30,071 bases of DNA, from IMG/VR virus record IMGVR_UViG_3300025108_000247, positions 1-30,071 of that record; one strand, given 5' to 3'. Within the stretch, counting starts at the first letter, position 1, and each line of letters begins with the position of its first letter. This document shows, one piece after another, positions 5,625 to 27,935 of this stretch. Origin of the DNA: a virus. Under the pieces are notes generated by a model, which saw only the letters and a program-made list of their open reading frames with translations, was not told the DNA's origin and did no database searches. Made by a program: the position numbers and the translations under genes.

Positions 5625-5954
5625 TTATTTAGAATTATTAAAAATAACTTTTTTTATTTCAGCCTCTGTTATCTCTAGTTTAAAAGTTAAGTCAGCTGCC
5701 CATTGATAAACAACAACGTCATCTTTATATAAAATAATCACAGGTACAGAAGAAATTTTGCTTTTTAAAGTTTCGCTTTGATCTTCTAGATTAGCGTATA
5801 CGTTTTGAACACCATTAATTTTAGGTAGTTCAACTTTATTGTTTTTATTCCACTTAGCATTTATTTCTAGTAAAGTAAACTTTTGAGCATATGCAAAAGA
5901 ACAAAACAAAAATAATATTAAAGTAATTAAATTTTTCATTTTATTTTTTTTCAA
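5625..5954 (-). CDS. secreted thioredoxin-fold-like protein without CxxC
   Basis: The 109-residue product has a clear Sec leader: basic MKKNKMK, a hydrophobic core LITLILFLF, and a cleavage site after FAYA before Q. This leader style is frequent in flavobacterial exported proteins. There is no good lipobox, although a Cys lies in the hydrophobic core. The mature part has the strand pattern of a thioredoxin fold: a strand GVQNVYANLEDQ, then KSKISSVPVIILYKDDVVVYQW with a Pro in the cis-Pro position (SSVPV), then a final helix. The CxxC active site is missing, so redox activity is unlikely. It sits between a membrane protein and the endolysin, so an envelope role in lysis or entry exclusion is plausible but unproven. 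The start could also be the internal ATG at residue 6. Confidence 0.75.
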   Translation of the reverse strand: MKKNKMKNLITLILFLFCSFAYAQKFTLLEINAKWNKNNKVELPKINGVQNVYANLEDQSETLKSKISSVPVIILYKDDVVVYQWAADLTFKLEITEAEIKKVIFNNSK

Positions 5955-6225
5955 TTATTTCATATAATTTTTCATCTATTTTATCAAGTTTATCACTGTT
6001 TTCTTCAACTTTTTCTTGAGTATTCATGATCGTCTCGCGGACTAATCGATCTTTTAAATCGTACTCAGTTCTACTAATAGTTGGTTCAGGTAATTCTTTA
6101 GCTATTTCTATTTCTTTTTGCAACGTAAAATACATCGCGGCTAAAGACACAGCGCCTGCTATAACCATTCCTATTGTTTTTAAATCAAGGGTAACCTTAG
6201 TTCCTTCTCCAAGTTCTGTAGCCAT
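5941..6225 (-). CDS. membrane plus coiled-coil protein, holin or inner-spanin candidate
   Basis: The 94-residue protein has a short N-terminal segment and one membrane helix at about residues 16-34 (TIGMVIAGAVSLAAMYFTL). A long charged coiled coil (residues 58-94, KVEENSDKLDKIDEKLYEI) follows. One membrane span followed by a soluble helix fits an inner-membrane spanin or a small holin. Location supports this: the gene precedes the secreted protein and the endolysin. Its start shares a base with the stop of the giant gene (TAATG) and its end overlaps the next gene by 14 bases. The exact lysis role cannot be decided from the sequence. Confidence 0.7.
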   Translation of the reverse strand: MATELGEGTKVTLDLKTIGMVIAGAVSLAAMYFTLQKEIEIAKELPEPTISRTEYDLKDRLVRETIMNTQEKVEENSDKLDKIDEKLYEIIEKK

Positions 6226-9200
6226 TATTTAATCTTTTTTCTTTTTATTTTACGTTTTTTAATTTTTCTAGGTTGAGGTTTGGTTGTTTCGTTTTCTTCT
6301 TTTATACCTATTTCCCAATCAGACCAACCACCGAGCAAAGCCATTCTTTCCCAAGTTTCAAGATCTTGTGAAGTTGCTTGTACCACGTTATTAGTCTTTT
6401 TAACAGCTCTGTCAAGCGGTATATTAGTTAAAGCAGATACAACATTAGCGCTGGCTAGATAAGCTGGGTTATCCAAACTCCAACCTTTTTCAGCCATTTC
6501 TTTTTTATCCCATTGATACGATCTTGCCGCTTGATTTATACGAGATAATTTAGCAGATATAGGTGGGGATAATTTAGTTAACTCGTAACCTACTTTTTCA
6601 AGTTTAGGTTGCTTTTTCTGCATCTCATCATATATACGTTTCAACGCATTTTTACCAACAGATATTACAGCACCACCAAGACCCATACCTCTAAGAAGAG
6701 AATCCATCATACCGTTAGCTATACCAATATACTTTTTTTCTTTTTCTTCATCTTCTGGCTCTGTATCTCCAAAAGCAAAAGCAAATAAAGCTTGCTGCAA
6801 CGCGTTAAATAATAAGTTTTGAGCAACACCGTAGTATATGATCTTACTCATATTAGTCTTTGCATCACCTCGGCCATTCTTAAGATCTCTAGCAGCTTTT
6901 TTAATTAATCGCGCATATTGTGCTGGTGTGTTAGCAAAAGCCAATACAAGACGTCCTAATGAACCAGCTTGTTGCATTGATATTCTATCAGGTCTTGAAG
7001 ACTGTTGAGACTCTTCAGCGATCTCTCTAAAATCTACAAATGCTTTATCTTGAGCTTCTTTAGAATCTAAACCTTGTTTTTCATAAGTTTTAATTCTATT
7101 ACGATAAAAAGTAGCTCCACCAGATGCAATAGCAAAACTATCAGCAAGTTGTGTTGGTGTAAAACCAAACTCTAGCAACTTATTGATAACACCTTGTACG
7201 CCACCTTTTTTAGCCATATCAGCAATATCGGCTTCGTTAACATTGATACGTAAACCACCTCGACGTTCTTTTAAGAAATCAGAGTTTGCTAATGTTAAAA
7301 AGTCAGACCAAAATTGTTTTTGATTTCCAAAAGCTTTACCGGCAGCAAGAATATTATTATCTGTGAAGTTAACAAAGTTTATAGCCGATATAGTTTGAAG
7401 TATAGCTGACCTCGTGTTAAAAAACATTATTGTACCAATACTACCAGTTATCCAATCTGTAAACCTACCTGTTAATGAATCACCACTAAAGTTTCTGTTA
7501 CGACCAGTTTTCATACGCTGTAACATGTTCTCTAATGCTTTACGATAACCTTTACCATAAGCAGCTTGAAGTTTGTTTAAGTTCTTTTCTGAAAATATAA
7601 CATCTACATTGTTTTGCCATTGTTCTAGATACTTAGCTCTTTTAGTAGTGTTTAGCCCTTCAAGTAAATCTGTCGTTATAGTACCAGCTGGCCAACCTTC
7701 TTTTGGTTTTGCATATTGATCACCTTTTTGCATAGCTATAAGCTGATCAGCAAACACTTGTAAATCAGCGTTATCAGATACATACTCTGTTAAATCTTTT
7801 AAATCTGCTTTGCTTATACCAGGAACATCCATTCCTTGAGTATTCCATATGTAAACTCTTACAGCTTGTTCTCTTGTGTAAGGTTCACCTGGCACTTTTT
7901 TACGTAAATTTTTTGGTACTACTTTTAACTGTTTTTTAAGTTGTTTATAGTCATTCATTAAAGCTATGCGAGCAGAACTTAATTCATTCATAGCTCTACC
8001 GTATGGGTTTAACAAATGTTTTTTATACCAAGCCATTTGAGAATCACCAAGTTTTCCTTTACTAAGTGTATCGTATAATAAACCTACAAAATCCTCAGCT
8101 GATGGTGGTATAAAGAAATTAAATCTACCTTTACCAGCTCCAGCAACTTCAGCTTTAACTCTTTTGTATTCTTTTTCAGAAGCTATACCTGTTTTAGCTT
8201 CTATTATGTCATTAAAACCTTTATCAAGATCTGAGGCTTTACTAAATTTAACTTTAGCTTGCTGTGTTTTAGATTTAACATCAAATACGTCTAATGCATC
8301 TTGTACTGCTTTAACATTTTTATATGCATCATCTACAAAGAAAAAGTCATTGTAACCTTCAGCAGCTTTACCCGTCATCCAACGTGCTTTAGCTTCAGCC
8401 TTGCCATCACCTAAACCTACAATATTTTCTATAGGTAAATTAACACCAAGCGCATCCATAAATTCTTTAATAGGACCAGCAGCGTCAGCAGGTCTAGCCG
8501 TAAGTATAAATACATCTTCAGCGCCTCTTGCTTTAACTATATTTTGTATAGCTTTAAATACAGGACCTTTTTTACCATCAATTACTTTGCTAAACTCTGA
8601 GAAATCAAACTCAGCTCCTTGAGCTTCTAGCTCTCCAGCTCTTTCAGCAAACTGTGTAGCATCAAGCTTACCAGTCGTACCGTCAGGCATTTCATACAAT
8701 ACATTACTTTTAGATCTAGCTAGTGTATCGTCAAAGTCAAATACACGTATCTTTTTAACAGGTGCTTCAGGGTTTCTAGCGTTAGCCATAGCCTGATCTG
8801 CGTTACCTAGATTATCAAGCACTTCTTGGTTAGGTACTTGTTTGCTAAACTTTATTGTGTTATTTTCGTTGTTGTTAATAGCGCTAGCTTTTGTTTTGTT
8901 ATCGGCTATTTTAATGTATTCTTTTATTTGATTCTCAGCTTGCTTAGCGTTTATCTCTCCTATAAATTGTTGGTATATTAATCTACCTTGTTCAGCAATA
9001 ACATTTGTATTGCTTTCAAATTTTTTATCTACAGATACATTGTATCTTTTAGCATCTGTGATACCATCTCTAGATCTTGTGTTTGGATCTAAAGTAAAAA
9101 ACTCATTGTATTTTCTTATATCAGAAGGTGGTACTTGGCTAAAGTCTCCAGTTTTAAAAGCTTCATCTAATTTTTCTTTTAAATAAGGATGTTCTTGAAA

Positions 9201-12200
9201 TTTAGATTTCCAACCTGGGTAAACACCATCAACGATGCCTTGAGTGTCTCTACCTGTAACTTCTTGATAGTAGTTATCTTCTGCCCAATTTAACCAGCCG
9301 TTAACAATGTTAGGATCTTTAGTGCCGTAAGCTTGTAAAGTTCTATTAGCCCAATTACCAAATTGAAAGACGTGTTCTTCCCATGTTTTTTGTTTTGGTT
9401 TTAAATTACTTTCTATAGAAGTTACTGTAGCAAATTTCCTACCAAAACTAGAGTTAGCATTAGCATTATAAAGCAACTCTCTTATTGAGCCTAAATTATT
9501 TACATCAGCTTGAACAGCTCTAAACAAAGCGTCTAAAATTAAACGTTTGCCTCTTTTTATTTTATCTTTATTAGTTTTGTTTCTAGACATACTAGCTCTA
9601 GTCTGACTAGACGTAGCAGCTATAACATCTTGTATTTGTTCTTCAGATAATAAATTAGCTTTGTCTTTTATTTCATTTCTTAAAACTTGTAAATCCATAA
9701 CTTCACCAGCGGCTATAGCAGCATTAGTTTCGTCTATAAATCTTTGAGTTTTATTTATGTCTCCTATAAATCTAAAACCTCTACCTTTAGCTCCGCTAGT
9801 TTTTGTACTACCAACAGCTGAATTACCAGCTCCAGCTACATCACTTGGTTTTATTATTCTATTAGCTTCTGATCCTAAAAATTTAGTTAATTCATCAACT
9901 AAAAAAGTTCTAAAAGTTTGATTGTCTTCTATTGTATTACCTAAAACTTTACCTCCTGCTTTTTCAACAGTAGTGTTCATATCCGAAGCTATCCCAGTTT
10001 TACTAAACATAAGTCTAGCTTTACCAGCTGCTACATCTTGTTTTTGAGTAATATCTAAATCAGTTTCAGATCTAACCACTTCGTTTGTAACAAGCCTACC
10101 ATATAAATTAGCTATACCTTTTAAAGCTTGAGCTTCAGGTGATCTTGCACTAAAATCTTCAGCTTTTTTACCTTCAATAATACCAAAAGCTTTCAAAAAG
10201 TCAGACTTAGTTATGCCTTTATTCTTTTTAAATGGAGCAAGTCCAGCACCTTTACCAACTCTAGCTTGCTTAGTGTAAAAAGCATTAAGCAAACCTTTAG
10301 GTACACCTGTCGATGTCCCAATAAGTTTTTCAGTTGCTGCTTCTAGCACTGCTCCTTCTGGTAATATTTTCAATAATTTATCAGCATTTTTACTAACAAA
10401 TCTTTGAATAGCATTTGCATCACCTTTAGATAAATTAGCTTTTGGATCTACTAACTTTTTAACAGGTATACCTATAGCTTCAGCTATAACATCAGGAGCC
10501 AAATCACCTAGTTTTTTAAACGTAAGTTTATCGGCTGGAATATCTTTTACTTTTGCTACAACTTGTTTTTTAATTTCAGCTACAGACTCAGCAGGTATAA
10601 GTGATGTTGGTTTTATTTTTTTAGCAACACGTTCTTCAACTACTTCAGTAACAGCTTCTTCAGCCGCAACACCTTTAGCTTCAGTGACATCTTCAGTAAA
10701 TTGCTCCCCAAGTACTCTATTAGAAGCTTCAATAGCACGAGCTGGTAAAAACTTGTTTATATAAGCGGCTAATGGCACACCTGATTCTGGGTCGTATTCT
10801 TTAATCAAGTCTAATATACCACGCTTACCAAGCTCTATTTCCGATGTTAAATCTTCTCTGTTAAATCCAGGAGCATCGCGTCTACGATCTACTATTTTGT
10901 TGGTAATAGGTTTAAACTGCTCTATAATATCGAAAGCCCCAGCCTCCCCTTGTTCTTCGTAAATTCTTTGAACTTCTTGAGAAGCTTCTTCAGATCTTGA
11001 TTCTTTAATTATAGTTTCAGCTTCTTTAACAGCGTCTTTAACTAAAGCTCCTTTTACACCTTCTTTAGCTGCTTTAATTTGAGCTTTGCCTATAATACCT
11101 TTTTCTATGCTTTTATTGTAATCTTTAATAAAGTTGTAAACATCTCTACCCGTGTTAAACTTAACTTTAACACCAAAGCTTTGCATAACTCTACGTATTT
11201 GATCACCTATCTTAGTAAATATATTTTCGTTAAATTTTATATCACCAGTAGCTAAAGCGTCTGAAAATAACGTTATAGCTTCTTCCATTTTTATACTTTT
11301 AGGATCTGCTGAGTATTGCTCTAAACGACTTTTAAATTTACTGTCTTTTACTTGAGCTGCGTCTATTTTATTTATTTCACCAAGCAAGGCTTCGCCTAAA
11401 TTTACAGCTGTTTCTGGACTATCTTTTACAGTTTTAAATAATACAGCATGACCAAATTCATGACCAGCAATATTCATAGCTTTTTCCTTGTTAGCTACTT
11501 CTTTATTTATAACTATAGTTTGTTCTTCTGTTATAGGGTTTTGTATTATAAAACCTTGTTGTTGAGAAGCTTTTATATCTGCTTCTGGATCTTGCTGTTT
11601 TATAAAGTTTTCTACTTCTTGAGTTGTATCAAAACTTTGAACAGTTACACCTTCTAATTTTTCAGCAGCTTTAGTAACAACTTCAACACCTCTTTGTATT
11701 CTACGTTGTACAGATTCTTGAAATAAAACATCGTTTTCATCTCTTATTTCAATGAATTTTTTATTAGCTAGTTGTTTAACTGACTCTGTTGTTTTTGGGC
11801 TTTGTATTTGCTGCTGAAGCTTTCTTAACTCATTTTGGTTACCAGCATATACTTTTAATTCCGCTGGTGTCATACTGTTTAAAGCGTCAGTAGTTTCTTT
11901 TTTTATATTAACTATATTAGCCTCTTCAGCTTTTATAGCTTCATTAATAAGTTTAACGCCTTCTACATCAGCCGACTTAGCGTCTTTATATAATTTAGAT
12001 ATATTATTAGCTGATTGTATTAATTGTTTTTTGTTTTCAGAAGGAGTTAATATCATTTGAGCTCTTTCTACTACAGCTTTATCTGTATTAGCTAAAGCAC
12101 CAGCAAAAGTTGTACCACTACCCATAACACTACCGACAATACCTTCATCTATAATATTATAAGCTTCTTTCCCCCAGTCAATGTCTTTTCCTAATGTGAG

Positions 12201-13421
12201 TTGATCAAGAAAAAGAGTGGTAACTTTAGTAGCTGCCTCTGATCCACCTTCTTTTAGAGTGTTTAAACCTAAAGACGTAATTAGTTTTTCAGAACCACCT
12301 CTTATTAAGTCTCTAGCAGCTTTATCAGCACCAGTATCTTTTAGTAATCTTGCTTTGCTTAATATACCTCTTGTTACAAGTTCAAAACTAGCCTCAGTTA
12401 CACCGGTTAAACCAGCGTTAGCTAGTAAAGTACCTGTAGATTTTTCAGGATCAGCTTCAAACTCTTCCATAAACTTTCCACCAGAAACACTACCACCTAG
12501 TAAAAATAAACCTCCTACACCGGTAGCTGCTGCTACTAAAGAAGGTAAAGACTCTATAGCAGCTCCAACAGCTCTTTCACCAGCTTTTAAATAATTACCT
12601 TTTTCAATTTCTTCAGTTATTGTTTGAGTTTCATATTCTCTTATAGATGGTTCAAGTTTTTCAATAAACTTTCCAATACTAGAAGAAGGTGGTAATTTAG
12701 CTGTACCAGGAGCTTGTAAACCTCCAGCTTTAACAAGACCCATTATAGCTTGTTTTTCTTCTACAGTACCCTTATATTCTGGTTCAAAAGTATCTAATGC
12801 TGTTTCCATTAAAGAATACTGTATAGTTTCACCCATTTGACTTATACCTTTAGCGAAACCAGCAAAACCTCTAACAGCTTGAGCTGCATAACTTTCAATA
12901 ACAGATGGTTGAGTTTTTTGTTTAAGTATCTCAGAAGCTTTAGCATTTATTTCTTCTGGTTTAATTTCGTATTCTTCTACGCCTTTGTTTCTATAGTCTA
13001 ACTCTATTTGATCGACAGCTAAATCTTGTAGTTTTACCTTTTCAACATCTGGTAACTCATCAAATACAGTTTCTGAGACCTCAATCTCTTCAACAGCATC
13101 TTCTATAGCCTCTTGTTGTTGTCTGTTTTCTATTCTTTCAAGCTCTTTAGCTCTCTGCTGACCTCTAACACTTCTTCTTTTTGGTTGTGAAACCAAAGAA
13201 GTATCTACCGGCTCTAATTCCATACTCTCGGACGCTTGCTCCGGTTCCGATGTTACAGTTGCATCCTCTACTACAACATCGTTTGGCTTTCCCACTGGTT
13301 GTTCAGTTTTAATTTCTTTTAAATTAAACTTACTAACATAATCTTCTACAGAAAGTTTTTTAGCTTCTGCGGCTTCAGTTACTTCTTCTAACGTGTATTC
13401 AGAACCTTCGTATTCAAACAT
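6225..13421 (-). CDS. giant multi-domain internal virion ('polyvalent') protein, 2398 residues
   Basis: The product starts with MFEYEGSEYTLEEVTEAAEA, a leader typical of large marine phage virion proteins. Visible parts in order are: a low-complexity acidic region to about 150; Gly/Ala-rich hydrophobic segments near 290-314; a coiled region near 460-560; an HEFGH metalloprotease-type motif (H654, E655, H658); and a sigma-70 region 2-like segment (about 835-908, with R855-E-D-L, YDPESG and a conserved Arg-rich helix). A HAD phosphatase-like domain follows (about 1555-1710, with DFDDTL, a LTARP motif, a Lys in GDGKAEAK and FFVDD). The long helical C-terminal region has hydrophobic stretches near 1988-2018 and 2196-2218 and ends in a strongly basic Lys/Arg tail. 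Large multi-enzyme proteins of this type are injected with phage DNA (the polyvalent protein concept of Iyer, Aravind and colleagues). The location after the cargo-like genes supports ejection. Domain functions are inferred from motifs. Confidence 0.85.
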   Translation of the reverse strand: MFEYEGSEYTLEEVTEAAEAKKLSVEDYVSKFNLKEIKTEQPVGKPNDVVVEDATVTSEPEQASESMELEPVDTSLVSQPKRRSVRGQQRAKELERIENRQQQEAIEDAVEEIEVSETVFDELPDVEKVKLQDLAVDQIELDYRNKGVEEYEIKPEEINAKASEILKQKTQPSVIESYAAQAVRGFAGFAKGISQMGETIQYSLMETALDTFEPEYKGTVEEKQAIMGLVKAGGLQAPGTAKLPPSSSIGKFIEKLEPSIREYETQTITEEIEKGNYLKAGERAVGAAIESLPSLVAAATGVGGLFLLGGSVSGGKFMEEFEADPEKSTGTLLANAGLTGVTEASFELVTRGILSKARLLKDTGADKAARDLIRGGSEKLITSLGLNTLKEGGSEAATKVTTLFLDQLTLGKDIDWGKEAYNIIDEGIVGSVMGSGTTFAGALANTDKAVVERAQMILTPSENKKQLIQSANNISKLYKDAKSADVEGVKLINEAIKAEEANIVNIKKETTDALNSMTPAELKVYAGNQNELRKLQQQIQSPKTTESVKQLANKKFIEIRDENDVLFQESVQRRIQRGVEVVTKAAEKLEGVTVQSFDTTQEVENFIKQQDPEADIKASQQQGFIIQNPITEEQTIVINKEVANKEKAMNIAGHEFGHAVLFKTVKDSPETAVNLGEALLGEINKIDAAQVKDSKFKSRLEQYSADPKSIKMEEAITLFSDALATGDIKFNENIFTKIGDQIRRVMQSFGVKVKFNTGRDVYNFIKDYNKSIEKGIIGKAQIKAAKEGVKGALVKDAVKEAETIIKESRSEEASQEVQRIYEEQGEAGAFDIIEQFKPITNKIVDRRRDAPGFNREDLTSEIELGKRGILDLIKEYDPESGVPLAAYINKFLPARAIEASNRVLGEQFTEDVTEAKGVAAEEAVTEVVEERVAKKIKPTSLIPAESVAEIKKQVVAKVKDIPADKLTFKKLGDLAPDVIAEAIGIPVKKLVDPKANLSKGDANAIQRFVSKNADKLLKILPEGAVLEAATEKLIGTSTGVPKGLLNAFYTKQARVGKGAGLAPFKKNKGITKSDFLKAFGIIEGKKAEDFSARSPEAQALKGIANLYGRLVTNEVVRSETDLDITQKQDVAAGKARLMFSKTGIASDMNTTVEKAGGKVLGNTIEDNQTFRTFLVDELTKFLGSEANRIIKPSDVAGAGNSAVGSTKTSGAKGRGFRFIGDINKTQRFIDETNAAIAAGEVMDLQVLRNEIKDKANLLSEEQIQDVIAATSSQTRASMSRNKTNKDKIKRGKRLILDALFRAVQADVNNLGSIRELLYNANANSSFGRKFATVTSIESNLKPKQKTWEEHVFQFGNWANRTLQAYGTKDPNIVNGWLNWAEDNYYQEVTGRDTQGIVDGVYPGWKSKFQEHPYLKEKLDEAFKTGDFSQVPPSDIRKYNEFFTLDPNTRSRDGITDAKRYNVSVDKKFESNTNVIAEQGRLIYQQFIGEINAKQAENQIKEYIKIADNKTKASAINNNENNTIKFSKQVPNQEVLDNLGNADQAMANARNPEAPVKKIRVFDFDDTLARSKSNVLYEMPDGTTGKLDATQFAERAGELEAQGAEFDFSEFSKVIDGKKGPVFKAIQNIVKARGAEDVFILTARPADAAGPIKEFMDALGVNLPIENIVGLGDGKAEAKARWMTGKAAEGYNDFFFVDDAYKNVKAVQDALDVFDVKSKTQQAKVKFSKASDLDKGFNDIIEAKTGIASEKEYKRVKAEVAGAGKGRFNFFIPPSAEDFVGLLYDTLSKGKLGDSQMAWYKKHLLNPYGRAMNELSSARIALMNDYKQLKKQLKVVPKNLRKKVPGEPYTREQAVRVYIWNTQGMDVPGISKADLKDLTEYVSDNADLQVFADQLIAMQKGDQYAKPKEGWPAGTITTDLLEGLNTTKRAKYLEQWQNNVDVIFSEKNLNKLQAAYGKGYRKALENMLQRMKTGRNRNFSGDSLTGRFTDWITGSIGTIMFFNTRSAILQTISAINFVNFTDNNILAAGKAFGNQKQFWSDFLTLANSDFLKERRGGLRINVNEADIADMAKKGGVQGVINKLLEFGFTPTQLADSFAIASGGATFYRNRIKTYEKQGLDSKEAQDKAFVDFREIAEESQQSSRPDRISMQQAGSLGRLVLAFANTPAQYARLIKKAARDLKNGRGDAKTNMSKIIYYGVAQNLLFNALQQALFAFAFGDTEPEDEEKEKKYIGIANGMMDSLLRGMGLGGAVISVGKNALKRIYDEMQKKQPKLEKVGYELTKLSPPISAKLSRINQAARSYQWDKKEMAEKGWSLDNPAYLASANVVSALTNIPLDRAVKKTNNVVQATSQDLETWERMALLGGWSDWEIGIKEENETTKPQPRKIKKRKIKRKKIK

Positions 13422-13430
13422 AATTAAATT

Positions 13431-15098
13431 TTAAGGTAGTTTTCTTTTTTCTCTTCTTTGCTCAATCAATTCATCTATTTCAACTAAAACAGCATCAGTA
13501 CTTGCATCAGCGCCAAACTCAGAAGTTTCAAGATCTTTAGCTAATCTAGCTACATCTTCTTTTCTGTTCATGTCGTATGTTTTTTCATCATCTGTTCCTT
13601 GGTATAATGTTACAATTTTACCTTCTTGAATAGCTTGACCTTCACCTAACTCAGCTCTAATAGCTGTTAAAGGATTGTCTAACACAGCGCTTAACCTATC
13701 TTCAGCTCTGCTAGATACTTTTTCTTTTTGTTCTTTAGACTTAATCTCAGAAACTGTAGGTTTATCTTCTTTTATTTTTTCACTTTTTAAAACTTTATAA
13801 TATATAGTATCTCCCTCAGAAATAGTAGAATTAGGATCACTTTCTTTTAGTCTAGTAACATCACTAGATGTAGCTTGTCTTTCTTTATATTGTGAAAATT
13901 TAGTTTCAACAGAGTTGTCTACTAAAACATCCTTTATATACTGTTGTCTTTGAGCAGGTGTTGGAAATTGTTTATTCAACTCTTGCATTGTTAAACCACC
14001 TCTATTGGTGCCAAAGTTTAAAAAAGCTTCTACTTCTGCGTCTGAAGCTCTATTTATACTAGCAGCTTGACCATTTAAAATATTATTTAAACTAGGGTCA
14101 TTTTTTATAGTGTTTATATCTACGATCTCTTCGCTATCAATATAATCACCTCTTTGTGTTTGAACTTTACCTACTAGTTTAGCATTAATTGTTCCTTTTT
14201 CGTCTTCTATGTTAGCTTCACCATAAACAGCTGAGTAATCTGGTCTTTCAGGAACATCAGTTGTAAAGTTACCGTCCCATACGTTTACATCTCTTTTAAA
14301 CTCAAATTTATAGTAATCTTTACCATCTTCAGTAACTTTTTTTAGTCCTTCTATATCGCTCGAACTTAATGTACCAGCAAATGATCCACCTTCTTTGAAT
14401 TGATCAACAGGCACTAACGTAGATGTTTCTAAATAATTTTCCCCTTTTTCACCTCTAGATGTTATTCTATTTTCTTTTACGCTTGGATCAATCATTATAT
14501 CAGGATTAACCGCATAGTAAGCTAGCTGGTTTTCAAATCTTTCTTTAGGTGTTTTTCCATTAAAAACATACCCACCTGCTGAGCCTAAGCGTGTTGGATC
14601 TTTTTCAGATATATCTTGAACACTTGATATTACTTTACCAAAACCATCAACTGCTTGAGATTGAAACATTTTAGAATCATCTACTATTTTAGTGTATTCT
14701 TTTCTTTGTTCATCAGTTAGACCTGTATTAAGCTCTAGTTGAACTCTAGCATCAATAGCACCCATTTTGTAATCTTTATCACCTGGAATACCTACACCAT
14801 TTAAAAGTTTTCCAACATCACTTTTAAATTGATTAGCTATACTAATGTCAGCATCGTTTTTTAAAGCTATATAATTGTCACGAGCAGAATCCATATATGA
14901 TTCTCGTATTTTAACTTCAAGCTTTTGCATTGCAGCTCTCTGCTTTTCAGCAGCTGCTCTTTGAGCTTGTTCAGCTTTTTTTCTTGCTTCACCAGCAGTT
15001 GTGATACCTTGAGCTATCTGCTGGCCTATACCAGCTATAGCTTTGCCCCAAACATCTGCAGATTTATCTACGATTATAGGTGGATTTCTATAACTCAT
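13431..15098 (-). CDS. internal virion / cargo-like protein, 555 residues
   Basis: The product begins MSYRNPPIIVDKSADVWGKA and has an Ala/Gln-rich helical stretch (residues about 20-65, with QGITTAGEARKKAEQAQRAA). The remainder alternates helical and mixed segments and is acidic overall, ending in a charged helix. No enzyme motif is seen. It lies between a glycine-zipper ejection-type protein and the giant multi-domain protein. In podoviruses this is the place of internal head or ejection proteins, so a role inside the capsid or in the DNA delivery channel is likely. The first residues and the size recur in marine phage virion operons as far as I recall. The gap to the giant gene is nine bases. 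Confidence 0.7.
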   Translation of the reverse strand: MSYRNPPIIVDKSADVWGKAIAGIGQQIAQGITTAGEARKKAEQAQRAAAEKQRAAMQKLEVKIRESYMDSARDNYIALKNDADISIANQFKSDVGKLLNGVGIPGDKDYKMGAIDARVQLELNTGLTDEQRKEYTKIVDDSKMFQSQAVDGFGKVISSVQDISEKDPTRLGSAGGYVFNGKTPKERFENQLAYYAVNPDIMIDPSVKENRITSRGEKGENYLETSTLVPVDQFKEGGSFAGTLSSSDIEGLKKVTEDGKDYYKFEFKRDVNVWDGNFTTDVPERPDYSAVYGEANIEDEKGTINAKLVGKVQTQRGDYIDSEEIVDINTIKNDPSLNNILNGQAASINRASDAEVEAFLNFGTNRGGLTMQELNKQFPTPAQRQQYIKDVLVDNSVETKFSQYKERQATSSDVTRLKESDPNSTISEGDTIYYKVLKSEKIKEDKPTVSEIKSKEQKEKVSSRAEDRLSAVLDNPLTAIRAELGEGQAIQEGKIVTLYQGTDDEKTYDMNRKEDVARLAKDLETSEFGADASTDAVLVEIDELIEQRREKRKLP

Positions 15099-15110
15099 TT
15101 GTTTTTATTT

Positions 15111-15218
15111 TTATTGAAATAACGGATTAGTAACTTTAAAAGTTTCCGCTAATTGTGAACTTGTAGGTGTTGAAGTAGGATTTACAGGAGGTGGACTTAC
15201 ACTAGTAGACGCCTTTAC
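15111..15218 (-). other. possible frameshifted C-terminal extension of the upstream ejection-type protein
   Basis: Directly at the stop of the preceding gene, the -1 frame is open for 35 codons (GTA at 15218 to the TAA ending at 15111). It encodes a Pro/Ser/Thr-rich tail VKASTSVSPPPVNPTSTPTS and then SQLAETFKVTNPLFQ. It has no ATG, GTG or TTG start, so it can only be translated by frameshifting on CCG CTA AAG, or else reflects a one-base mutation or sequencing error. Without it this would be the longest gap in the late operon, 116 bases, while nearly all other gaps are under 40. The other frames show no gene here. Confidence 0.45.
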
Positions 15219-15943
15219 TTTAGCGGATTAGCAGAGAGATAAGAACTAGTTATACCTCCAACAGCACTAATCCCCCCAGCAATAGCTTGTGATCTTGCTT
15301 GATTAGCTTGAGCTTGATCAGCTTGAGCTTGTGATATTTTACCAGCAGCTCTATCCATGTCTGCGTTAGTTCTTTGTTCTTGTGTTTGAAACTCAAATTG
15401 TTTACCAGCGGCTTCAGCAGCTTGAACTCTTTGACCTTCTGATATAGCTATACTTTGCAAACGCTGTTGTTCAGCCATTTTTTGTGATTGTAACTGCTGT
15501 TCGCCTTGAGCTCGTAGTTTTTCATTATTAGCTTCTTGACCCTCAATAGAAGCCGCAACACCTTTTTTACTTTGTAAAGCAGCTTGTGCAAGAGCAGTTG
15601 CTCCACCAGCGCTAGCTCCAGTTTCTCTAATAGTATCTAATGTATTAGCTAGAGCAATATCAGCTTGTTCTATTTGTATCTCAGCAGCTTGTGTAGCTAC
15701 ACCTAAACTAGCAAATGGATTAGATATTTCACCAGATAAATCAGTTGCTAAACCAGCTAAACTTTTAGTTGATTCATAAGGATTTATAATTTGTTGTCTA
15801 CTTTCTTTTAAAGCGTCTAATTCAGCTTGAGCTCTATCTTTAGCTCTACCAGCTCTATTAGCTTGTTTTTTAGCTTGATTAGCTCCTACTGCCGCTCCCA
15901 CACCAGAAACTACCGCGCCTGTTATTGCTGCTACTGCTGCCAT
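15215..15943 (-). CDS. glycine-zipper internal virion / DNA ejection-type protein, 242 residues
   Basis: The N-terminus is a Gly/Ala-rich membrane-like segment (residues 3-21) with small-residue spacing at G9, G14, G16 and G20, followed at once by a basic KKQANRAGRAKDRAQ stretch. The middle is a long Ala/Gln/Glu helix (about 25-220) that looks like a coiled coil. A second Gly/Ala-rich segment (AIAGGISAVGGITSSYL) closes the protein. This layout is common in proteins that leave podovirus heads ahead of the DNA and form a channel through the cell envelope. The gene sits among cargo-type genes, two bases after the GNAT-like gene. The frame ends NPLK, but an open -1 frame continues directly and the true C-terminus may be longer. 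Confidence 0.75.
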   Translation of the reverse strand: MAAVAAITGAVVSGVGAAVGANQAKKQANRAGRAKDRAQAELDALKESRQQIINPYESTKSLAGLATDLSGEISNPFASLGVATQAAEIQIEQADIALANTLDTIRETGASAGGATALAQAALQSKKGVAASIEGQEANNEKLRAQGEQQLQSQKMAEQQRLQSIAISEGQRVQAAEAAGKQFEFQTQEQRTNADMDRAAGKISQAQADQAQANQARSQAIAGGISAVGGITSSYLSANPLK

Positions 15944-15945
15944 AA

Positions 15946-16356
15946 TTAATTTATTTTTTTAGATATTTCATAAGAAGGATTTTTATCTATTGTGTAACCT
16001 AGTTTTCTATGAGTTTCAATTAAACCCTTACTTCTTCCAATACTTAGTATTACTTCAAAGCCGCTATTTTTAGCGACGTTTTCTATTCCGTTTATTAATA
16101 ACTCCATTGCTTGTTTTCTATCTGACTCTCTATAATCTGGATCTGAAACTACCCATTCTATCCAAGCTACTTTTGAGTTTGTTGTATATAAAAAACCTGC
16201 AATTATAGGTTTATTATTTTTTTCAACCATAAAACCACCTGTTCCATTTTCAGGTAGCATGTGTTTAGGTACTGGTACCCACTCTGGCCATTGCTCCCAC
16301 CAAAAGTTCAAAGTTTCCCAGTCACTTTCAATAAGTTTACGTATGTTTAATTCCAT
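15946..16356 (-). CDS. GNAT-like acetyltransferase-fold protein in the tail module
   Basis: The 136-residue product has the order of GNAT N-acetyltransferase elements. An N-terminal strand and helix (NIRKLIESDWETLNFWW) are followed by GGFMVEKNNKPIIAGFLY, then KVAWIEWVVSDPDYR, then a helix (ELLINGIENVAKNSG) and VILSIGRSKGLIETHRKLGY, which corresponds to the last GNAT motif. The acetyl-CoA loop, normally (R/Q)xxGx(G/A), here reads YRESDRKQA (75-83) and lacks both Gly, so cofactor binding may be altered. The Trp-rich WWEQWPEWVPVPKHMLP segment is characteristic of a group seen in marine phage virion operons. The substrate is unknown. A virion protein as target or a structural use of the fold are both possible. 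Confidence 0.8.
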   Translation of the reverse strand: MELNIRKLIESDWETLNFWWEQWPEWVPVPKHMLPENGTGGFMVEKNNKPIIAGFLYTTNSKVAWIEWVVSDPDYRESDRKQAMELLINGIENVAKNSGFEVILSIGRSKGLIETHRKLGYTIDKNPSYEISKKIN

Positions 16357-16366
16357 TTAATTTAAT

Positions 16367-17698
16367 TTAATATGATGATTCTACATAATTTGTAGAAACT
16401 GCGAATAATTCTTTTTTACCACCTAAACTATTATCAACACTCATTTCAACTGTAGCAAAAAAGCCTTTTATACCAGAAGTATCTTGACCCCATAAAACTT
16501 CACCAGGTTGAGAGGTAGTGTTGTTTATTAAATTAGCAAAATATTTATTTTCTTTTGCTTTAAAGTTGTTTTGTAGTATTTGGTTTTGCAAATCTGCTAA
16601 GTTGTTAGCTTGAGTAAGTATATTTATAGCTTTAGTAATAGGTAGTGAAACATCTGAGGATGTAGCCATTGAATTAACTTCCCAATCACCACTACCTTCA
16701 TAGTTTATTGTTTTAAAGTTTTTAACAAGTGATTGATTGCCATTAAATACAAACGTTACGGTTGAATCATTAGAAACACCGTAAAACTTACCTCTTTCTG
16801 TAGATCCACTTTCTAAAGTATAATGCTGCCATATTTTACCATCATGAGCAGAATACATAGATGTGTTTAAGCTAAATATAAAATCAGGTTTAAAGCTTAA
16901 AAAACTAGTCCAACCATTAACACTATCGTCAAAAGAAAGTGTTTTATAAGTACCGTTTTGTTGTATAGATACTGTGTAGTTTTTATTATGTATATCCCAA
17001 CCACCTATTATATCGTCTTCAACTTGTAATGAGCCTAGGTTGTCTCTAAAAAAGTCTTGCATACCATAAGATGATATTTCAGTCAAACCGTCCATAGAGA
17101 GCCTTAAAACAGCGTTTCTTTTTCTATCTGTAAAGTATTTTCTATAACCGTAAACAGCAAAACTTTCTGGGTTTGTACTAATACCATAGTTACCAGCGTA
17201 AGGAATTATTTGACCTATAACCTGTGTTGACGATGTTACAGCAGCATTACCTTCAGCAGAATAAATAGCATCTTTATCAATAAGCGCTCTACTAACTTTA
17301 TCTTCTTGTAAAACTATTAAATTAGTATCTTCAGCGTACAGTTTTTGAATACTACCGTTAGCAGGATCTGCAGACTTAGTTATTTCTTCACCTACTGAAA
17401 ATACATTAGTTCTATTTATACCTGTCCTAGAGTTAAATACACCTGAGTATATAATAGAATTAAATCTATGTTGCTGTCTAGTTTCTTCTTCAACTAAATA
17501 AGCTTTAACTCCAAAATCTACAGACGTGTTGTTATATCCACCTCGTATTCTAGCTTCTTCAATAAACCAATCATTATCATTACTAGAAGCATAGCCACCA
17601 GGTACAATAACTTCGTTAACTGGATCAGCTTGAGTTATAGAACCTATCTTCTTTAACCAAAAAGAGTTAAAATACTTTATATTTAGTGTTGCTGACAT
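16367..17698 (-). CDS. virion protein resembling the C-terminal half of a muzzle / stabilisation protein
   Basis: The 443-residue protein is dominated by beta strands. Its middle contains YRKYFTDRKRNAVLRLSMDG (residues about 183-202) and then LTEISSYGMQDFFRDNLG. This resembles the repeated 'tDk.rn.vlRLs..Gl..IS..GM..fF' segment of large tail-end beta-propeller proteins such as crAss-like muzzle proteins. GGWDIHNKNYTVSIQ and KTLSFDDSVNGWTSFLSFKPD are further blade-like repeats. In related phages this segment can follow the N-terminal part in one chain. Here the N-terminal part appears to be in the gene just upstream, so the protein may assemble with it at the tail tip. The function is inferred from pattern and gene order. 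Confidence 0.6.
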   Translation of the reverse strand: MSATLNIKYFNSFWLKKIGSITQADPVNEVIVPGGYASSNDNDWFIEEARIRGGYNNTSVDFGVKAYLVEEETRQQHRFNSIIYSGVFNSRTGINRTNVFSVGEEITKSADPANGSIQKLYAEDTNLIVLQEDKVSRALIDKDAIYSAEGNAAVTSSTQVIGQIIPYAGNYGISTNPESFAVYGYRKYFTDRKRNAVLRLSMDGLTEISSYGMQDFFRDNLGSLQVEDDIIGGWDIHNKNYTVSIQQNGTYKTLSFDDSVNGWTSFLSFKPDFIFSLNTSMYSAHDGKIWQHYTLESGSTERGKFYGVSNDSTVTFVFNGNQSLVKNFKTINYEGSGDWEVNSMATSSDVSLPITKAINILTQANNLADLQNQILQNNFKAKENKYFANLINNTTSQPGEVLWGQDTSGIKGFFATVEMSVDNSLGGKKELFAVSTNYVESSY

Positions 17699-25282: not shown

Positions 25283-26701
25283 TTAGTCAGTGAACAATAC
25301 AAAGTTGTTAGCACCTTGTACACACAAACATCTTTCAGATAGGAAGTGTACTTCCATTGCATCAAGATCAGAAGTGTAAGCTCCTCCAACAGAACCAGTC
25401 AACCAAGACTTCATACGACGATCATCAGTTTGAGATGCTCGGTAACGTACGTGCAAGAATGGACGACGGATGTTAGTTCCTAGGATTTGATCATAAACTG
25501 TAGAAGTTCCAGCTGGTACTAATACACCTTCGATACCAGCATCAGCAACACCTCCACGAGTTGAAGCATCATTCAAGTATTTCCAGTCAGTTTTATAGAA
25601 ATCATAAGAACCTCTTCGGAATCCAGAGAATCCTAAGTTTAGAGCCATATCTTCAGAATTTTCAAACAATCCGTAAGATGTACCTCCAGTTCCATAAGAA
25701 TTAACTCCAGCAAGCATATCGTCGATCAAGATCGAAGTACCTCTGTTCAAGAAAAGCATGTTTTCTTCAATAGCTCCTTGAGTGTCAAGATTTTTAAGAA
25801 TCTCATCAAATTGACTCAAGTCTCCAGAAGCAGGTGCAAATCCAGAGAAAACATTTCCTCGTGATTTAACAGCGGCGAAAAGACCTTCAGTACCTTTCTT
25901 ACCAGCAGCTAAAGCTCCTGAAAGAGGCGCAGCCAAAGTACCTTCAACTACAGACATTTCTAGATAATCTTCGAAACGTAGACGAGTTTCAGACTCAGCT
26001 TTCAAGTACCATAGATACCCTCCGGTTCCGTCTTCAGTAGCAACTTCTACCCAACCGATTTGAGCAGTATCAGATCCAGAAATAGCATATTTAGATTTGA
26101 TAATGATAGGTGAGTTAGAAAACTGAGTGAAAGAAGGAGTGATTGATTTAAGATCAGCGTCTCCAGTTCCTTTTCCAAATTCAGAACCATATACGAAGAT
26201 TTTAAGATCTGTATCAAGTACATTAAATGTATCATCAAGATCTGCACCTGTGTAAGTGGCAACTGTTAAAGTAGCAAGAGAAGCTGTGTTTACGACGTCT
26301 GTAACAATAGCTGTAACTTCAAGTCCGTTAGCAGGATCCAAAACTACAATAGTTTGGTCTTTTGAAATTACGTTATCTACAAAAGTGCTACCAGAACCTC
26401 CTAAAGCAAATGTTAAAGTAGTTGCTGTAGCAACAGTTACACCTTCGTAAGCGACGTGTAGACGGTTTTGCTCAGACCATACTACTTGGTCAGATGTCAT
26501 AGGCATTTCAGCTCCTACCATACGTAAGAATCCAGAAAGAGTTCTGTTTCCATAACGCTCTACTTCTTGTTCGTAGATCTCAGGTAGATACTGTTGTGCG
26601 AAATCGTTTCCAGATCCATCAGTAAAGTTTAGATAGTTGGATTCTAGAATTTGTTGTTTTTGACTCGGTTTAATTGAACCGAATGTTGGTGATAAAGCCA
26701 T
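25283..26701 (-). CDS. major capsid protein
   Basis: The 472-residue product has the opening YLPEIYEQEVERYGNRTLSG followed by FLRMVGAEMPMTSDQVVWSE, the N-terminal arm I know from major capsid proteins of crAss-like and related marine phages. A variable beta-rich domain (about 90-170) looks like an insertion domain. The C-terminal part (DDRRMKSWLTGSVGGAYTSD, LDAMEVHFLSERCLCVQGANNF) resembles the P-domain and A-domain end of the HK97 fold. Codon use differs sharply from neighbours. G+C is about 45 percent in two hand-counted lines, Arg is mostly CGT and TTC is common. This indicates selection for high expression. It is followed by a strong hairpin terminator. The scaffold-like gene precedes it, as expected. 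Confidence 0.92.
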   Translation of the reverse strand: MALSPTFGSIKPSQKQQILESNYLNFTDGSGNDFAQQYLPEIYEQEVERYGNRTLSGFLRMVGAEMPMTSDQVVWSEQNRLHVAYEGVTVATATTLTFALGGSGSTFVDNVISKDQTIVVLDPANGLEVTAIVTDVVNTASLATLTVATYTGADLDDTFNVLDTDLKIFVYGSEFGKGTGDADLKSITPSFTQFSNSPIIIKSKYAISGSDTAQIGWVEVATEDGTGGYLWYLKAESETRLRFEDYLEMSVVEGTLAAPLSGALAAGKKGTEGLFAAVKSRGNVFSGFAPASGDLSQFDEILKNLDTQGAIEENMLFLNRGTSILIDDMLAGVNSYGTGGTSYGLFENSEDMALNLGFSGFRRGSYDFYKTDWKYLNDASTRGGVADAGIEGVLVPAGTSTVYDQILGTNIRRPFLHVRYRASQTDDRRMKSWLTGSVGGAYTSDLDAMEVHFLSERCLCVQGANNFVLFTD

Positions 26702-26720: not shown

Positions 26721-27935
26721 TTAAATTTTAATTTTTTTTACTTTTAGTTTTGATGCACTAAGCGCATCGTTGTTTAACACTTTCACTTTTATACCATCTT
26801 GAAAACCACCTTGAGGCGTTTGCCTTGGTGTTGAACTAGGATTTTTGGAACTATTGACAACCTCTTTAACAGCGTCAGCTCTACCTTGTTCATAAAAATG
26901 ATTTGCAATAGTGTCAGCATTTGAAGCAGCATACATAGCTTTGTGATAACCAGCCGGATCTTTTACACTACCATCTTCGTTAAGGAACTTCCCTACAAGA
27001 TTACTAATGTCTGATTGGTTTTCTGCAACTTTAGAAGGATCTTTTACACCGTATCTAAACTTTTTTTCACCTAATTTGAAATCAAAACCTTTGAAATCTT
27101 CGCTAAAAAGTTGTTTAGTTTGGTTTTTAAACTCTTCATGTTGTTGCTCAGCTTTTGTTTGCTGATCATTATATCGATTGAAAAAGTCCATTGCTTTTTG
27201 TTGTTCTTGAGTTACGCCCGGTCTCAACTTGATCTCGTCGTAGTATTTACTCTTAGTTTCTTCCAAAAAGTTTTTGGCTTTTGCAACTTCTTCTTTAAAC
27301 GCAAGTTTTTTCTTACGTATATCTCTTTCCTCGTCTAACTCTTCATCATAAGAAAAGTCTTCAAGTAAAAGATTTATATCCTCACCTTCTAGATAAGGTT
27401 TGGTCTGTTTATAATATTCTCTTAATAATGTATTTGAATCAACATTAGAGTAGTCAGCGTTTAAACGAACATAATCGTTAATATCTCCACCTGTTTCCTC
27501 CATAAATGAAACTAGTTTTTCGATGTTTTCTGGTAGTGGTTTACCTAATACCTTTTCATCTCTAATAGCTTCTTTTACTTGCTTCTCAACTTGTTTTACT
27601 TCCTCCTGTACTTCTTCTTCTGTTATTTCTTGAATGATTGGAGCTTCATCTTGAACGGTGCTTTGTTCTGATGATACTTCTTCAACCACTTCTTGTACAG
27701 GTCCGGTTTGTTGATCTGCAACCACGTTTGTTGTTTCTTGCTCTGTATTGGCATTTTCTTCGGGTTGTTTTTCTTCAGAACCAATTACTACTTTAGTAAC
27801 TTGCTCTTCTACTTGTTTTTCTACTGGAGCAGACAAATCTACTTTGACAGGCTCGCTCTGTGTTTTAACCAGTTTTTTAGGTGTAGTCTTCTTACCTTTT
27901 AAAGAAAACTCTCCTTCTTGTTTTACTTCTGACAT
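26721..27935 (-). CDS. scaffold-like head assembly protein, 404 residues
   Basis: The gene lies between portal and major capsid, the classical scaffold position. The N-terminal third is very acidic and repetitive in Glu, Val and Gln (for example QEITEEEVQEEVKQVEKQV), so it is probably disordered. The middle (about 140-275) is helical and charged: NIEKLVSFMEETGGDINDYV, LLREYYKQTKPYLEGEDINL, then a long Lys/Glu coiled coil. The C-terminal part ends in a short basic KLKVKKIKI tail, reminiscent of scaffolding proteins whose basic end binds the capsid protein. No enzyme motif is seen. The assignment is by position, composition and architecture. Confidence 0.75.
   Translation of the reverse strand: MSEVKQEGEFSLKGKKTTPKKLVKTQSEPVKVDLSAPVEKQVEEQVTKVVIGSEEKQPEENANTEQETTNVVADQQTGPVQEVVEEVSSEQSTVQDEAPIIQEITEEEVQEEVKQVEKQVKEAIRDEKVLGKPLPENIEKLVSFMEETGGDINDYVRLNADYSNVDSNTLLREYYKQTKPYLEGEDINLLLEDFSYDEELDEERDIRKKKLAFKEEVAKAKNFLEETKSKYYDEIKLRPGVTQEQQKAMDFFNRYNDQQTKAEQQHEEFKNQTKQLFSEDFKGFDFKLGEKKFRYGVKDPSKVAENQSDISNLVGKFLNEDGSVKDPAGYHKAMYAASNADTIANHFYEQGRADAVKEVVNSSKNPSSTPRQTPQGGFQDGIKVKVLNNDALSASKLKVKKIKI

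Follow-up and report, generated by a model that had tools for sequence, protein, structure and literature searches.

The window, that is, the whole 30,071-base virus record analysed here, encodes on its minus strand a 2398-residue protein (P0001) that joins a zincin, a module resembling sigma-70 factors, a HAD phosphatase domain, and an all-helical C-terminal core in one chain. We consider it very likely that this protein is a polyvalent protein ejected from the virion, its presence in the particle of this phage being inferred. The homology of the sigma-like segment to sigma region 2 is well supported, and we hold it with nearly the same assurance; the action of the module on host RNA polymerase is inferred.

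The 2398-residue protein is encoded among virion genes

An earlier note, made from the sequence alone, had described a 2398-residue open reading frame at 6225–13421. The frame is single and free of stops, its length and motifs were given correctly, and its strand is minus. The structural-gene cassette of this strand encodes a portal protein, a scaffold-like protein, a major capsid protein (MCP), ring-like proteins, a 1546-aa tail protein, a muzzle-domain protein, a GNAT acetyltransferase, and cargo-type proteins of 242 and 555 aa, followed by the 2398-aa frame; the placement after cargo-type genes given in the note was therefore right. Next comes a lysis group that includes an M15 peptidase (endolysin), and ribonucleotide reductase genes were recognized on the opposite strand by eye, from translations.

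25283..26701, minus strand: major capsid protein, 46–52% identical to flavobacterial phage MCPs (phrog_13704)
16367..17698, minus strand: protein with a crAss-type muzzle C-terminal domain (PF25729, E = 1.2e-10; phrog_14478)
15946..16356, minus strand: GNAT acetyltransferase, relative of phi38:1 gp098 (Pfam E = 2.5e-4; blastp E = 1e-6)
15215..15943, minus strand: 242-aa cargo-type gene, in the position held in phi18:3 by gp120, which is annotated as structural from MS/MS (position only)
13431..15098, minus strand: 555-aa cargo-type gene, in the position held in phi18:3 by gp121, which is annotated as structural from MS/MS (position only)
6225..13421, minus strand: P0001, very likely a giant virion/ejection protein (polyvalent protein) of 2398 aa (ATG at 13421, stop codon at 6225–6227)

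The structural annotation of phi38:1 gp098 is by similarity. Because a tblastn search of P0001 against cultured phages gave no match, relatives among cultured phages were reached through the MCP and the muzzle protein, by which the nearest phages are those of Cellulophaga, Flavobacterium, Tenacibaculum, and Maribacter. The best reading of the virus is a crAss-like, Bacteroidetes-infecting marine podovirus; with the muzzle domain matched, the terminase outside the window, and no tree, only a crAss-like relationship is claimed.

Relatives keep one fixed domain order

With P0001 as the query, viral contigs yielded 44 loci encoding the giant protein. The sigma-like profile matched 193 stretches in viral contigs and the C-terminal core at least 567, and the best 80 of each were kept for analysis. 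No relative was confirmed when the sigma-like profile was searched against 84,980 bacterial and archaeal genomes. P0001 alone gave almost no matches in Pfam and PDB, and profiles A1–A4 returned nothing meaningful from PDB sequences, so the folds could not be settled by sequence search alone. The features recognized in P0001 are as follows:

13197..13421, minus strand: conserved N-terminus, residues 1–75 (conservation profile; N-terminal matches in L041, L042, and L045)
12042..12584, minus strand: Gly/Ala-rich hydrophobic segment, residues 280–460, shared with the giant proteins of cultured flavobacterial phages (iterated HMM; blastp)
11031..11708, minus strand: M78/IrrE-type zincin metallopeptidase domain, residues 572–797 (Pfam Peptidase_M78 in 10 of 37 members, best E = 3e-7)
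11448..11462, minus strand: HEFGH zinc-binding/catalytic motif, residues 654–658
10242..11021, minus strand: sigma-70-like module, residues 801–1060, comprising a region-2-like core and, with lower confidence, a helical part at its C-terminal end (AlphaFold and Foldseek; Pfam in relatives; hhalign)
10707..10991, minus strand: sigma region-2-like core, residues 811–905 (block pLDDT about 88–94)
8250..8789, minus strand: HAD phosphatase domain, residues 1545–1724, with four motifs, polynucleotide-kinase-phosphatase-like (phrog_415, E = 2e-6; Pfam DUF2608/HAD)
6273..8255, minus strand: C-terminal all-helical core (C-core), residues 1723–2383, about 660 aa (A4/A7; AlphaFold pLDDT 79, pTM 0.78; BFVD matches)
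6228..6272, minus strand: very basic C-terminal tail RKIKKRKIKRKKIK, residues 2384–2398

Zincin, sigma-like segment, HAD domain (where present), and core recurred in this one order in scores of viral contigs. Among complete reading frames, 64 had all four parts, 35 had zincin, sigma-like segment, and core, and 30 had no detectable sigma-like match at first pass; several records entered these counts repeatedly, each time under another locus id, so the figures are rough ratios, not independent observations. With an iterated profile, the sigma-like segment was recognized in 99 of the 119 non-redundant stretches that follow the zincin. In the alignment, the N-terminus, zincin, sigma-like segment, and C-core were conserved, and residues 75–560 and 1140–1545 were variable. 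The HAD domain was missing from relatives with C-cores 72–81% identical to that of P0001, among them L003, L009, and L012; the HAD is gained and lost on nearly constant C-cores, which is module shuffling.

The hydrophobic segment and the C-core link P0001 to virion proteins

Residues 280–460 are probably an ejection or membrane segment. The iterated profile of this segment matched the giant proteins of phi18:3, phi38:1, Gundel_1, elemo, and Panino, with E values from 1.6e-13 (phi18:3 gp123) to 5.5e-29 (Panino), and blastp aligned residues 290–611 of P0001 with residues 279–611 of phi18:3 gp123 (E = 2e-8). In the cultured relatives, moreover, the giant gene lies at the same place. For phi18:3 gp120, gp121, and gp123, GenBank gives the note 'annotation based on experimental MS/MS proteomics analysis'; this evidence is an annotation for a relative without the sigma module, and there are no proteomics data for the present phage.

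The C-core is the best-conserved large part of the protein. In BFVD, its model matched predicted phage proteins annotated as large-polyvalent-associated, PolyVal ADP-ribosyltransferase, or MuF, and also predicted structures of a crAss-like virus protein and a Gundel_1 structural protein. By sequence, none of the Pfam LPD models matched in the two scans made, and nothing convincing for LPD38 came from a search of 9 relatives. An assignment of the C-core to LPD38 was rejected: by sequence, none of 15 records gave a match above the cut-off, and the only weak matches were to the giant of Panino (1.8e-5) and to that of G007 (0.004), the latter lying outside the core. The very basic C-terminus pointed out in the earlier note is present, and its character is conserved among relatives. 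By analogy, residues 1–75 may be ejected first.

Several features of the polyvalent class were thus found: disparate domains within 2398 aa, a position near virion genes, and a zincin together with an LPD-like C-core fold. The earlier reading of P0001 as a polyvalent ejected protein is supported by its gene position, its homology to the MS/MS-annotated gp123, and the fold likeness of its C-core.

The zincin and HAD domains retain their catalytic residues

Peptidase_M78 was the commonest Pfam match of the zincin region in the 37 relatives scanned. A conserved glutamate (E714) lies downstream of HEFGH, and HExxH was retained in 122 of 124 non-redundant relatives; what had been noticed as an HEFGH protease motif is therefore that of an M78-type zincin. 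The studied members of M78, ImmA and IrrE among them, cleave HTH repressors. The Pfam match would accordingly fit an offensive protease that mainly attacks host or prophage repressors rather than processing its own chain, a role that we regard as possible and hold only tentatively. Set against this, zincin processing of polyvalent chains in general has been inferred (PMC5512222); neither role has been shown for P0001, and the two do not exclude each other.

The HAD motif residues of P0001 are D1562/D1564/T1566, T1641, K1678, and D1697/D1698, and in alignment A3 residues D18, D20, T22, T97, K134, D153, and D154 were invariant. A strict pattern recovered motif I in 75 of 77 relatives, the remaining two reading DFDQT, and LTAR was kept in 77/77. 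The conservation of HExxH, motif I, and LTAR across relatives indicates that these motifs are not due to chance. Among the HAD members scanned against Pfam, DUF2608 was matched in 18/18 and HAD in 12/18; the phrog_415 family matched by the domain is polynucleotide kinase, and the domain resembles phage polynucleotide kinase (PNK) phosphatases. The HAD domain with all four motifs proposed earlier was thereby borne out. Judged from their retained catalytic residues, the zincin and the HAD domain both look active.

The segment after the zincin is very likely related to sigma region 2

The sigma-like segment is the best-conserved part of the N-terminal half, with 46 invariant columns in 24 sequences. 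Sigma70_r2 was not matched by P0001 itself in the Pfam scan, and PF04542 gave no match in the window. In the relative L014, a blind scan with 24,736 models gave a Sigma70_r2 match at residues 984–1043 (E = 0.025), exactly at the place aligned to the sigma-like segment. Furthermore, genome-wide searches with Sigma70_r2 gave matches within the giant frames themselves, in G018 (L014; E = 9.9e-6) and G020 (L162; E = 5.5e-4). When 30 divergent segments were scanned, Sigma70_r2 was found in two, tied with two other families for most members, and had the best E value of the three (0.0029); one of these two members is L014 once more, or else L162, which is closely related to it, and so is not fully independent.

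The earlier note had proposed structure prediction with Foldseek and profile searches of each segment. An AlphaFold model of residues 801–1060, built from 56 sequences, was confident over residues 11–100 of the segment. In a Foldseek search of this model against 350,542 PDB chains, 50 of the 50 matches listed were sigma factors (probability 0.72–1.00). The best E value was only 3.6e-3 and global TM-scores were low, perhaps owing to a loose joining of the two parts in the predicted model. As a control, the all-helical C-core model gave neither a sigma factor nor any meaningful match against PDB, indicating that an all-helical model does not draw sigma factors by default.

Profile comparison pointed the same way. 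Aligned by hhalign to region 2 of E. coli sigma, profile A2 gave a pairwise E value of 0.001 in the expected register, as against 0.05–0.6 for unrelated proteins. The iterated diverse profile matched a combined sigma alignment with a probability of 79.6% (E = 1.5e-5), compared with 0.1–2.2% for the zincin, HAD, and core domains used as controls. The match of the sigma-like profile to the phages' own stand-alone sigmas alone was weak (E = 0.03). Profile comparison found region 2 alone, and a likeness to region 4 was sought and remained unsupported; the sole hint of region 4, which we do not claim, is that the Foldseek alignments span most of the 260 aa. Of the profile searches, those of the zincin and HAD segments matched M78 and HAD families and that of the sigma-like segment matched Sigma70_r2 in relatives; the region 2-like segment of the note rests on Pfam matches in relatives, on the listed Foldseek matches, and on the profile probability.

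Residues W433, W434, Q437, and T440 of sigma70 contact the −10 element. In the hhalign alignment of A2 with E. coli sigma, these residues are aligned to K, F, A, and I. The Y430 equivalent and the glycine and hydrophobic frame are kept; the D403 equivalent is D in the family consensus and S in P0001. As the −10-reading residues are mostly replaced, promoter recognition of the usual type is doubtful and cannot be assumed.

Relatives with the module also encode a stand-alone sigma factor

A separate protein of about 252 aa with sigma region 2 was encoded in 17/17 long relatives (61–72 kb). A region 4 match was present in 12/17 of these stand-alone sigmas, and the G007 gene is broken into two reading frames. 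In the six cultured relatives, which have the giant protein without a sigma-like module, region 2 was matched in 0/6, and in Gundel_1 a single weak match to region 4 was seen. Phylogenetic clustering of the two groups is probable, and therefore the co-occurrence of module and stand-alone sigma is only suggestive.

No RNA polymerase beta subunit was detected in 23 records, with 14 of 14 control genomes matched; a T7-type RNA polymerase was not found either, and no control genome carries that family. Since none of the RNA polymerase families tested was matched, the host polymerase is presumably used, with a phage sigma. These phages thus appear to depend on the host polymerase and a phage sigma, with one sigma-like part placed in a probable virion protein. 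A search for promoter motifs in four relatives gave nothing clear, and the host-type TAnnTTTG was not enriched (5 occurrences vs. 4.1 expected).

The presence of a stand-alone sigma in every long relative is also compatible with a decoy or competitor, in which the module would occupy the beta' clamp-helix site and shut host transcription at entry, specificity being supplied later by the stand-alone sigma. Such a role would agree with the fold and shape of region 2 being kept while the −10-reading aromatics are lost, and with a region 4 that cannot be demonstrated in the module. Nothing specific contradicts it, but a decoy would hinder early transcription by host sigma, which such phages would still need, and we think it unlikely.

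That a sigma-derived fold has been reused in the ejection apparatus, as a structural part or an adaptor, or else for DNA binding or packaging, without a transcription role, seems less likely again. The segment nearly always sits beside the zincin, strongly divergent forms included (the 99 of 119 post-zincin segments), and functional sigma residues are only partly retained, as that explanation would have it. However, the module is missing from cultured relatives that share the ejection segment and the gene position, so it is not needed for ejection; its co-occurrence with the stand-alone sigma (vs. 0/6) speaks for a link to transcription, within the limit set by the clustering of the two groups.

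Proposed mechanism and comparison with known systems

The explanation that we favour, by a modest degree as a whole, is a polyvalent ejected virion protein with a sigma-like module that docks on host RNA polymerase and tilts its activity toward the entering genome. On action of the module upon host RNA polymerase taken alone, we see the chances as even; promoter-directing and decoy modes are both possible, and the function is inferred. In the proposed course of events, the giant protein would be packed in the virion and, as we infer, ejected into the cell together with the DNA or ahead of it. Ejection would be the task of the N-terminal part and the hydrophobic segment, and the C-core and basic tail would keep the protein in the particle. 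Once in the cell, the M78-type zincin might process the chain, an inferred activity, or cut a host regulator. The sigma-70-like module could dock on the host core RNA polymerase and shift its preference to the phage DNA just entering, at a time when the separate sigma factor has yet to be made, both polymerase binding and promoter choice being inferred. The HAD domain, being of the polynucleotide-phosphatase type, may in the same early period mend or remove 3' phosphates of nucleic acids or act on a phosphate-bearing signal; its substrate is likewise inferred. More conjectural, and in our view rather short of even odds, is that a virion-delivered sigma, freed by the neighbouring zincin, programmes the host polymerase for the phage genome as soon as infection begins. 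If true, a virion sigma would be the host-polymerase-using counterpart of the virion RNA polymerases of N4 and crassviruses.

We know of no answer to how transcription starts in Bacteroidetes podoviruses without a recognized RNA polymerase. The polyvalent proteins (Iyer, Burroughs, Anand, de Souza, and Aravind, 2017; PMC5512222) share with P0001 a chain of >2000 aa, a zincin hub, unrelated enzymatic domains, and coding among virion genes, and its C-core resembles predicted proteins annotated as LPD or PolyVal-ART. P0001 differs by adding a sigma-like module and a HAD phosphatase; the main text of that paper contains none of the words 'sigma', 'phosphatase', 'haloacid', or 'polynucleotide kinase', and its route to early transcription is the N4-type virion RNA polymerase.

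The giants of cultured flavobacterial phages (phi18:3 gp123, phi38:1 gp101, Flavobacterium elemo gp18, Maribacter Panino, and Tenacibaculum Gundel_1) also follow muzzle and cargo genes and have the hydrophobic segment in common; elemo gp18 likewise has a zincin, and the Gundel_1 giant resembles the C-core by fold. In contrast to P0001, no sigma-like module or HAD was detected in them, and their C-cores are unrecognizable by sequence. The crassvirus PhicrAss001, whose cargo and RNA-polymerase proteins are gp45–gp50 (PMC10172136), similarly has a crAss-type muzzle, cargo proteins, and giant chains believed to leave the particle by way of the tail. The crassvirus virion, however, brings its own RNA polymerase (PMC10172136), in place of which the sigma-like module may serve in the present clade. 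The virion RNA polymerase of coliphage N4 (gp50) is likewise an ejected giant in which a zincin adjoins a transcription module and a C-terminal region is required for packaging, but N4 brings a whole polymerase, whereas P0001 has only a sigma-like part that would need the host enzyme.

The earlier note had called the family not wholly new and the mechanism apparently undescribed. The first part stood, as the protein is of a known kind. The second stands provisionally: a virion-borne sigma module appears undescribed, with no description found in the accessible papers, and subscription papers and preprints were outside the scope of the search. If the module acts on host polymerase, the virus may take over host transcription at entry. 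The occurrence of a sigma-like module and a stand-alone sigma across marine viral contigs suggests a testable two-step sigma programme with a particle-borne first step, and the polyvalent repertoire gains a transcription-factor fold and a nucleic-acid-end phosphatase. In one relative (L172), a zeta-toxin/AAA_33 P-loop kinase sits between the zincin and the sigma-like segment (E = 3.6e-14), which fits a kinase–phosphatase theme.

Modules swapped into the giant proteins

Three additional domains were located in relatives of the giant protein.

L172:6284-7276, P-loop kinase, zeta toxin/AAA_33 (E = 3.6e-14)
L026, residues 1159-1201 of ORF 6308-15283, LysM domain (E = 1e-8)
NC_055854.1 gp18 (L053:1852-12936), residues 1323-1392, DUF3293 (E = 1e-12)

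The P-loop kinase is inserted into the L172 giant protein with the zincin on one side and the sigma-like segment on the other, and together with the HAD could constitute a polynucleotide kinase-phosphatase pair. The DUF3293 of gp18, the giant structural protein of the elemo phages, is another swapped module. It precedes the zincin; in L026, the LysM insertion separates the zincin from the sigma-like segment.

Stand-alone sigma factor

A separate phage sigma factor of ~252 aa (for example, L218:1459-2217) is encoded in all 17 long relatives (G001-G017, which include records of L104, L119, L130, L044, and L160), with region 2 present and, in most, region 4 too. This gene is absent from the 30-kb window, which is a fragment.

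Other genes of the window

15946-16356, GNAT acetyltransferase, between the muzzle gene and the cargo genes
26721-27935, scaffold-like protein, C-terminal tail KLKVKKIKI
6228-6272, giant protein C-terminal tail, RKIKKRKIKRKKIK
5625-5954, 109-aa frame, TTG start, weak DUF6568 match
1598-2170, 190-aa gene, weak DUF6445 match (E = 4e-5)

The GNAT acetyltransferase is akin to gp098 of Cellulophaga phage phi38:1, annotated as structural by similarity, and is possibly itself virion cargo that acetylates host proteins.

Both the scaffold-like and giant proteins end in a short basic Lys/Ile-rich tail. These tails may represent a common head-assembly signal.

The 109-aa frame, flanked by a one-TM holin-like gene and an M15 endolysin gene, displays a signal-peptide-like N-terminus and a thioredoxin-like pattern (SVPVIILYKDD). 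The 190-aa gene adjoins NrdB.
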